Source of the DNA: Flavobacterium hydrophilum
GTDB taxonomy: Bacteria > Bacteroidota > Bacteroidia > Flavobacteriales > Flavobacteriaceae
Direction of reading: 5' to 3'
Length of the DNA: 64,000 nucleotides
Assembly (NCBI RefSeq): GCF_003202405.1
Contig: NZ_QJHL01000001.1
Coordinates: forward strand, 1,860,001 to 1,924,000
In this document: positions 53,976-64,000 of the stretch, one piece after another
Position numbering within the stretch: position 1 is the first letter of the stretch
How the letters are laid out: each line of letters begins with the position of its first letter
Made by a program: the position numbers and the translations under genes
Notes under the pieces: model-generated
What the model was told of the DNA's origin: nothing
Database searches by the model: none
Seen by the model: the letters and a program-made list of their open reading frames with translations, nothing else

Positions 53976-54203
53976 AACTTAGATTTTTAGACTTTTTAGA
54001 TAATTAGATTATTAGATTTCTTAGATTTTAGACTTTTAGATTATTCTCTTTGTCGAATCTTTGAAGTTATTTTCTAACTTATTTCTAATGTCATTGTTTA
54101 TATTGATAGTATTCCTAGCCCCGATAGTAGTGGAAATCCTTTTGCTGGCTTCTTTAGACAGAAAAAGATTGTAACGGATAGCGGGAATAGCTCCTGAATA
54201 ATT
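53976..54203. repeat. argE-argH spacer with TTAGA-word block and structured repeat element
   Basis: Two blocks fill the spacer. 53990-54045 is built from repeated TTAGATTTTTAGACTTT-like words. 54110-54195 is a more GC-rich unit containing TAGCCCCGATAG and CGGATAGCGGGAATAGCTCC at its ends and an inner hairpin CTTTTGCTG (54139-54147) with CAGAAAAAG (54159-54167, one mismatch). From memory, similar units occur dispersed in Flavobacterium genomes. No ORF is credible here. Confidence 0.6.
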
Positions 54204-62918: not shown

Positions 62919-63557
62919 TTAAGTAAATAAAACAGACAATAATTTATTTAAAAATAAAGCCTGTTTAATTTTTTTAAGTCTGCTTAAAACAGCTTCATTA
63001 AAAGGATGTCTAGGCGGATCTTTTGGTTTGTCTTTAGGATCATATAGCATACCTGTACAAAGACACATTTTATTTTCTTTACTCTGTAAAATTTGAAAAT
63101 TAGTGCATGTTTTACAGCCAGCCCAGAAGCTGGGATCAGTAGTCAATTCAGAGAAAGGAACCGGTTTATACCCCAAATCAGAATTGATTTTCATTACTGC
63201 AAGTCCGGTTGTTATACCAAATATTTTTGCTTCAGGGTATTTTTTCAAAGAATATTCAAAAACTTTTGATTTAATCTTTTTAGCCAAACCCAGATTTCTG
63301 TAATCCGGATGTACAATCAAGCCGGAATGTGCCACGAATTTTCCGTGCTGCCAACTTTCGATATAGCAAAACCCTGCAAATTTTCCGTCTGCCAGAGCAA
63401 TCATTGCGTCACCATTTGACATTTTTTTCTGAATATATTCAGGAGTCCTTTTAGCAATCCCTGTACCTCTTAACAAGGCAGATGATTCTATCGTATCGCA
63501 AATTTCCTGTGCGAATTTGAAGTGTTCTTCCTGAGTTACAACAATAGAGATCTTCAT
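62919..63557 (-). CDS. GNAT acyltransferase, candidate N-acylglutamate synthase
   Basis: The 212-residue protein is a GNAT enzyme (about 1-150; acyl-CoA loop VHPDYRNLGLAKKIKSKVFE) with a Cys-rich tail (FWAGCKTCTNFQILQSKENKMCLCTGML) that may bind a metal. It heads the arginine operon, which otherwise lacks any enzyme for the first step, acylation of glutamate. In Bacteroides an adjacent GNAT gene has, as I recall, been assigned this role from mutant fitness, with succinyl-CoA as donor. I infer the same step here. Whether acetyl or succinyl is used is open. A long leader region (63558-63881) precedes it. Confidence 0.82.
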   Translation of the reverse strand: MKISIVVTQEEHFKFAQEICDTIESSALLRGTGIAKRTPEYIQKKMSNGDAMIALADGKFAGFCYIESWQHGKFVAHSGLIVHPDYRNLGLAKKIKSKVFEYSLKKYPEAKIFGITTGLAVMKINSDLGYKPVPFSELTTDPSFWAGCKTCTNFQILQSKENKMCLCTGMLYDPKDKPKDPPRHPFNEAVLSRLKKIKQALFLNKLLSVLFT

Positions 63558-63794
63558 TTCAATAGTTGAAGTTTAGCGTTAAATATTAAAACGTATTGTT
63601 TGGTTTGAAATCCAAAAACAGAGCTAATAAAATCAGACACAATAGAAGTAATATCCTCAAAATCAAAAAATTGATTCAGAAAATTTTTAAAAAAATAAAT
63701 ACTTTTGGTATGTGTTTGCCCGATGGACAACTTAAGTGATTTCAAAATAAAAATGAATATAAAATAAATACGCGACGAAAAACTCTTTTGAATA
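63558..63794 (-). other. Untranslated stretch between the leader ORF and the first arginine gene
   Basis: These 237 bases would be mRNA leader if transcription starts near 63881. They hold an open frame of 63 codons with a TTG start (63554-63745) that overlaps the GNAT ATG by 4 bases, but without a recognisable family or a normal start. A T-rich run follows a very short stem (ATAC/GTAT) near 63692-63704, not enough for a terminator call. Confidence 0.4.
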
Positions 63795-63881
63795 CTATAT
63801 AGATAGCATCCGTACTTCGGGAGAAGTACCAGGTGAGATTGTCCGTGACAAAGAAGTTATATGTAAACTTATTTTATTCAT
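63795..63881 (-). CDS. 28-codon small ORF, candidate regulatory leader peptide of the arginine operon
   Basis: The ATG (complement of 63879-63881) lies only about 6 bases after an exact -7 box, so the message would be almost leaderless. The peptide starts MNKISLHITSLSRTISPG and ends PEVRMLSI. It is rich in Ser (six) and has two Arg, both CGG codons, which are rare in this sequence. Codons 18-24 lie in a perfect 7-bp hairpin, GTACTTC (63812-63818) with GAAGTAC (63823-63829), loop GGGA on the plus strand. Position before an amino-acid operon suggests ribosome-mediated control. It could also be a chance frame within a structured RNA. Confidence 0.5.
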   Translation of the reverse strand: MNKISLHITSLSRTISPGTSPEVRMLSI

Positions 63882-63886
63882 TGGTG

Positions 63887-63894
63887 CAAAAGTA
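63887..63894 (-). promoter_or_regulatory. Bacteroidetes -7 box of the arginine operon leader
   Basis: On the minus strand TACTTTTG matches TAnnTTTG exactly; a TTTT-rich -33 region lies about 19 bases further up without a perfect TTG. It is the only good promoter found before the arginine genes. The 100 bases to the window end (63901-64000) are AT-rich with nothing else I can name. Confidence 0.65.
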
Positions 63895-64000
63895 CACTAT
63901 TTTTTTATTTAGAAAACTAATTTTAAAAAATCTAACATTTTTTTAATGCAATGTTATTTTTTTTTAAAAATAAAAAATTCCGATAGATTTCATAAACCTA

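Follow-up and report, generated by a model that had tools for sequence, protein, structure and literature searches.

The region upstream of the arginine/proline genes of Flavobacterium hydrophilum is probably an arginine-responsive, ribosome-mediated leader composed of two open reading frames (ORFs) that controls the operon behind it, as judged from its sequence and conservation. The arginine-sensing half of this proposal is well supported by comparison among relatives; for the output step we infer Rho, coupling or refolding. In the 64,000-nucleotide stretch of DNA that was analyzed (the window), a minus-strand gene run begins at the window's end with a GNAT-family acetyltransferase gene (GNAT) as its first member. 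The leader and the genes behind it are laid out as follows:

63887–63894, minus strand: −7 box TACTTTTG of the leader promoter; fits TAnnTTTG, with a conserved spacer to the ATG
63795–63881, minus strand: ORF1, a 28-codon near-leaderless leader peptide and presumed sensor; reading frame and relatives
63812–63829, minus strand: hairpin P1, GUACUUC-UCCC-GAAGUAC, inside ORF1; covariation, e.g. ACCUC/GAGGU
63790–63811, minus strand: hairpin P2, GGAUGCUAU-CUAU-AUAGUAUUC, reaching from the last Arg codon to beyond the ORF1 stop; covariation
63746–63789, minus strand: U-rich spacer, whose UAUUCAU may tentatively pair with the ORF1 start; complementarity, without covariation
63554–63745, minus strand: ORF2, 63 codons, UUG start, no Arg; stop overlaps the GNAT start (AUGA)
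62919–63557, minus strand: GNAT-family acetyltransferase, first gene of the arginine/proline run; Pfam PF00583
52695–62854, minus strand: argG, argC, argD, proA, proB, N-acetylornithine-type carbamoyltransferase, argB, argE/dapE-like deacylase and argH; NCBIfam matches

The run from argG to argH comprises the genes presumed to be regulated by the leader, with co-transcription assumed from their orientation. A search of the genome for the C-terminal domain of ArgR (PF02863) returned no match, which makes another form of control of the arginine genes plausible; the same domain was matched in 8 of 14 control genomes, a Bacteroides among them. An Rfam Flavo-1 RNA (RF01705, 73.9 bits) lies on the plus strand at 54113–54192, just 3′ of the argE-like gene.

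A near-leaderless ORF with rare arginine codons

The −7 box TACTTTTG (63894–63887, minus strand) is followed by a 5-nt spacer and the ATG of ORF1 at 63881. A study of F. psychrophilum places a TAnnTTTG box at −12 to −5 of the transcription start site (PMC9723704); by this distance, the predicted transcript start is the single base before the ORF1 ATG, leaving a 5′ UTR of ~1 nt. Box and ATG are likewise 5 nt apart in 73 of 80 species, and in all 80 the distance lies within 4–6 nt, so that the near-leaderless start is a conserved feature; leaderless mRNAs make up only 5.5% of the mapped mRNAs in F. psychrophilum (PMC9723704). The initial annotation had described a nearly leaderless ORF behind an exact −7 box, and this description fits, both in the match of the box to TAnnTTTG and in the 5-nt spacer kept across species.

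ORF1 encodes MNKISLHITSLSRTISPGTSPEVRMLSI in 28 codons and ends with a TAG at 63797–63795. Its two Arg codons, codon 13 (63845–63843) and codon 24 (63812–63810), are both CGG, and both are CGG in 28 of 28 aligned relatives and in 80 of 80 other species; in the window, CGG accounts for 16 of the 493 Arg codons (3.2%). The two codons stand 11 apart in the clade of the window and are fewer than in typical attenuators. Most of the more divergent Flavobacterium have three CGG codons, located at the corresponding end of the peptide (TSRSERS, SRVVRS and NYRVVRL). Among the tRNA loci read, the tRNA-Arg anticodons were TCT, TCG and ACG and none was CCG, so CGG is probably decoded by one tRNA, tRNA-Arg(UCG); two weak tRNA matches (L261 and L264) were not recognized by ARAGORN. 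The genome yielded no convincing further copies of ORF1.

Two covarying hairpins at the end of ORF1

The hairpin GTACTTC-TCCC-GAAGTAC (P1; 7 bp, 63829–63812) is positioned between the two Arg codons; the minus-strand sequence confirmed the 28 codons, the two CGG Arg codons and the 7-bp hairpin in the ORF, all reported at the outset. Across 28 distinct sequences, 96.7% of the P1 and P2 cells pair, against 25–39% with the partners slid, and 15 cells are altered on both sides, against 3.2 in a shuffle test that the relatedness of the sequences inflates. Divergent species rebuild the P2 stem with different pairs. The covariation analysis that the initial annotation had proposed supported P1 and P2; beyond them only a 3-bp helix emerged, and a conserved fold of the whole leader was set aside since these three elements alone were found. 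The ORF1 start is complementary to UUUAUUCAU in the spacer to a degree above shuffled spacers; matched partners do not exceed swapped ones (P = 0.38) and do not covary, and we treat this pairing as tentative. Rfam gave no match in the leader, nor in the leaders of relatives at E up to 1.

In P2 the last Arg codon is base-paired with RNA that surrounds and follows the stop, much like the 1:2 pause hairpin of trp-type leaders, and hairpins near T runs are seen, by eye, in some divergent relatives. Both features would suit classical transcription attenuation, in which ORF1 governs an intrinsic terminator via alternative hairpins and ORF2 is dispensable. We consider this unlikely: 63500–64000 contains no terminator-like site and no canonical intrinsic terminator, no alternative helix is conserved, including one in which the P2 3′ arm pairs downstream once its 5′ arm is occupied, and the constraint on ORF2 described below would be left unexplained.

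What is conserved in ORF1

The start, frame and stop of ORF1 are retained in every relative examined. Its dN/dS is ~0.85, no better than a column-shuffled null, and its substitutions are constrained at all codon positions. The Ser-rich core SLSRTISPG, which had drawn attention initially, is not what is conserved; the two Arg codons and the two hairpins are. One species (L237, genome G340) keeps Arg at both ORF1 sites with AGG replacing both CGG codons, a switch that favors Arg decoding over nucleotide identity.

The main clade shows no variation at residues P21, E22, V23 and R24, as could be expected of a nascent-chain arrest peptide of the SpeFL/TnaC kind, in which the chain ending SPEVR would stall on arginine or a related metabolite and not on tRNA charging. 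However, the codons for P21–R24 also build P1, so that RNA pairing accounts for their invariance, and this reading is further at odds with the dN/dS of ORF1 and with the peptides of other lineages, which are unrelated and share mainly Arg codons. We judge it quite improbable. To the same degree improbable is that the conserved unit is a structured RNA, either a riboswitch or a protein-binding site, with translation of ORF1 incidental. Constraint at all codon positions and the covariation of P1 and P2 would be in keeping with such an RNA, but the structure consists of just two small hairpins without an Rfam match, the start, frame and stop of ORF1 are kept as noted above, and Arg survives the codon change in L237. 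On these alignments, the constraint in ORF1 is one on the RNA and the Arg codons, and not on the peptide as such.

A second ORF kept open up to the first gene

The ~240-base leader that the initial annotation had placed after ORF1 is mostly a second ORF (63745–63554), missed earlier, rather than plain untranslated sequence. Its UUG is conserved, 129–140 nt past the ORF1 ATG, and ORF2, with 57–63 codons, reaches the GNAT start in 26 of 29 species of the first set, the exceptions being L023, L030 and L037. In the 80 named species ORF2 is intact throughout, spanning 58–63 codons and stopping between −9 and +4 nt relative to the GNAT ATG; the junction reads UGA-A-AUG in 63 species and AUGA in 11 (74 of 80), which fits a translationally coupled leader ORF. 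The few species with a broken or changed ORF2 are the three exceptions above and L237, in which it is apparently lost. In L030 (G046), ORF2 continues in frame into GNAT without a stop, possibly a natural fusion. A purine occupies position −3 of the ORF2 UUG in 130 of 131 cases, amid a pyrimidine-rich context; as an A at −3 promotes initiation in F. johnsoniae (PMC6847099), this is what a start codon there would show. That ORF2 is ORF1 continued by a fixed frameshift was rejected, since the frame relation between the two varies between species.

We queried the openness of ORF2 using 535 parsimony substitutions placed on a GNAT-based tree of the 62 species that possess an intact 61-codon ORF2. 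Five stop-creating substitutions were inferred in the ORF2 frame, against 30.7 ± 5.1 expected if unconstrained, and the other two frames gave 22 (expected 20.8) and 40 (expected 37.1). Because ORF2 is intact in all 80 named species, choosing the 62 does not create the stop deficit, and because none of the 62 has a stop, the five inferred ones probably reflect reconstruction order. The dN/dS of ORF2 is 0.68, compared with 0.033 for GNAT by the same method, and its substitutions are spread evenly over codon positions. Arg makes up 6/1625 and 22/4895 of ORF2 residues, against 2.7% of codons in the window, a depletion that the U-rich composition may explain in part; being almost without Arg, ORF2 would be readable during starvation.

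That ORF1 and ORF2 are functional small proteins merely sharing a promoter, a reading to which the open frame of ORF2 would lend itself, is highly improbable given their dN/dS of 0.85 and 0.68 beside the GNAT value and the even spread of substitutions over codon positions. The comparisons instead indicate that ORF2 is selected for being translated and not for its product.

Linkage of the leader to GNAT

By DNA search the region was detected in other Flavobacterium genomes, and it precedes GNAT in those examined; F. johnsoniae CI04, F. pectinovorum, F. aquidurense and F. hibernum are among the species with names in this set. A 124-position covariance model matched 192 of 399 Flavobacterium genomes, once per genome among those listed, and across the order its matches were almost confined to Flavobacterium. 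This single occurrence per genome, the kept box spacing and the CGG codons shared by the 28 and the 80 relatives speak against a chance observation. Outside the genus, the ORF1 model gave one weak match (G755/L249), to an ORF without an Arg codon in the part read.

Linkage was followed in 35 sampled genomes, of which the majority had given no DNA match to the region. GNAT is lacking in 23 of them, and none of these 23 has a leader match. Where a close GNAT is encoded (at least 74% identity), the leader is present in 7 of 7 sampled genomes; where the GNAT is distant (55–58%; five sampled genomes), none matches the covariance model. In four of these five, reading by eye located a short upstream ORF whose Arg codons cluster at the end; that of L191, for example, ends in TSRSSRSRA before the stop and uses three CGG codons.

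The initial annotation had proposed a translated leader controlling the arginine operon, to be abandoned should neither peptide nor hairpin be conserved in related genomes; the ORF and the hairpin are conserved in relatives, and the broad proposal is supported, with attenuation, ribosome stalling and RNA folding as the candidate mechanisms that it named. Its link to arginine gains from the clustered CGG codons in divergent relatives and from the Arg-rich leaders that precede GNAT across the Flavobacteriaceae.

Arg-rich leaders across the Flavobacteriaceae

In other Flavobacteriaceae genera, one or two Arg-rich short ORFs precede GNAT. In L215, MKNLKNKIRCTTPGLPVRNRRRF-stop is followed by an ORF ending MMRRRFPRRP-stop, and in L219 a single ORF ends VRSFVPVRRRP-stop. 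Of 28 regions upstream of GNAT, 26 contain a short ORF whose last twelve codons include three or more CGN, against 1.3 in shuffles. The proximal leader ends RRP-stop, with the stop codon inside a GUAA loop, and its pattern CGYCCSTAAGGG...AGGTGWGTCC occurs once each in 51 of 149 genomes; the reversed-pattern control had no matches among the genomes listed. The pattern is situated shortly upstream of GNAT in each of the 50 genomes whose coordinates were compared; the fifty-first genome with the pattern is G844. A second hairpin follows the proximal-leader element, its stem varied and its loop constant, and the element has no Rfam match.

The family-wide element with the hairpin loop AGGUGWGUCC was observed upstream of GNAT in L198–L224 and L266–L275. 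With W = A, this loop is complementary, with one bulge, to GGAUCACCU, which we take to be the 3′ end of 16S rRNA. In L197, L201 and L214 the leaders end RRPLGV or RRPLRV and not RRP-stop, and the downstream hairpin differs.

Some divergent Flavobacterium are intermediate, combining a three-CGG ORF1 with a UUG-started ORF2 of ~30 codons that ends (F/I)RP-stop. The tandem scheme appears to descend from the arrangement seen across the family, in which GNAT is preceded by one Arg-rich leader peptide or by two. In the simplest history, the second leader in the window's clade would have lost its Arg tail and hairpins and been extended to the GNAT start, as suggested by the position of the ORF, by its start codon and by a loose motif in common close to where ORF2 begins.

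Proposed mechanism

Taken together, a model for the leader can be put forward. Going by the box spacing, transcription would begin at the ORF1 start codon, and ribosomes would load on the bare 5′ end. ORF1 would act as the sensor, its rare CGG codons stalling the ribosome when arginyl-tRNA is short. A ribosome paused on CGG24 would cover P1 and the 5′ arm of P2 and hold both hairpins open; with ample arginine, the ribosome would reach the stop inside P2 and depart, and the hairpins would re-form. The state of the P1/P2 segment would then set whether ORF2 is translated. Ribosomes on ORF2 would terminate at the GNAT start codon and carry on into the operon by coupling, and translation of ORF2 may in addition shield a long pyrimidine-rich RNA from Rho; the data are compatible with both of these outputs, coupling at the GNAT start and protection from Rho.

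More specifically, and only tentatively, the region may be a two-stage leader in which a near-leaderless, rare-Arg-codon ORF gates a nearly Arg-free ORF needed solely for its translation, bringing ribosomes into the first gene in starvation; it would have arisen from two Arg-rich leaders, the second of which shed its Arg tail and hairpins and grew to reach the start of the structural gene.

Relation to known leaders

The trp, his, ilv and leu attenuators share with the Flavobacterium leader a short translated leader, codons for the pathway product, a hairpin over the last control codon and the stop, and a cognate operon downstream. The Flavobacterium leader differs in that no terminator was found, the clade has two control codons, the start is near-leaderless and a second ORF runs into the first gene; with no terminator-like site in 63500–64000, it is not classed as a trp/his-type attenuator despite its attenuator-like sensor. 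SpeFL is a leader peptide in arginine/polyamine metabolism, and peptides of the SpeFL/TnaC type sense a metabolite through the nascent chain, whereas here divergent lineages share mainly Arg codons.

Among published Arg-sensing leaders, the closest that we found is RbfL of Staphylococcus aureus, a short upstream ORF that senses arginine limitation because ribosomes pause at its rare Arg codon (PMC13009471). The rare Arg codon in a short upstream ORF as arginine sensor is common to both; unlike the Flavobacterium leader, RbfL does not precede arginine genes, consists of a single ORF and belongs to a Shine–Dalgarno organism, and its pausing blocks a downstream start and lowers expression, the opposite direction. 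Within the genus, the main text of the F. psychrophilum study suggests leader-peptide attenuation upstream of amino-acid operons, naming pheA and hisG, so that, as far as that text goes, leader peptides of this kind are already known in Flavobacterium; a tandem ORF is not described in it (PMC9723704). An arginine leader in Bacteroidota was not described in the open-access literature searched.

Implications

Bacteroidota genes are generally without Shine–Dalgarno sequences, and leader-peptide control has been little studied in the phylum. A related element, absent from Rfam, precedes GNAT in other genera. In the tandem design, ORF2 is conserved as open but not in sequence, which separates the importance of translation from the importance of the product unusually cleanly. 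The leader is a testable candidate for the means by which Flavobacterium may regulate its arginine synthesis in the absence of ArgR.
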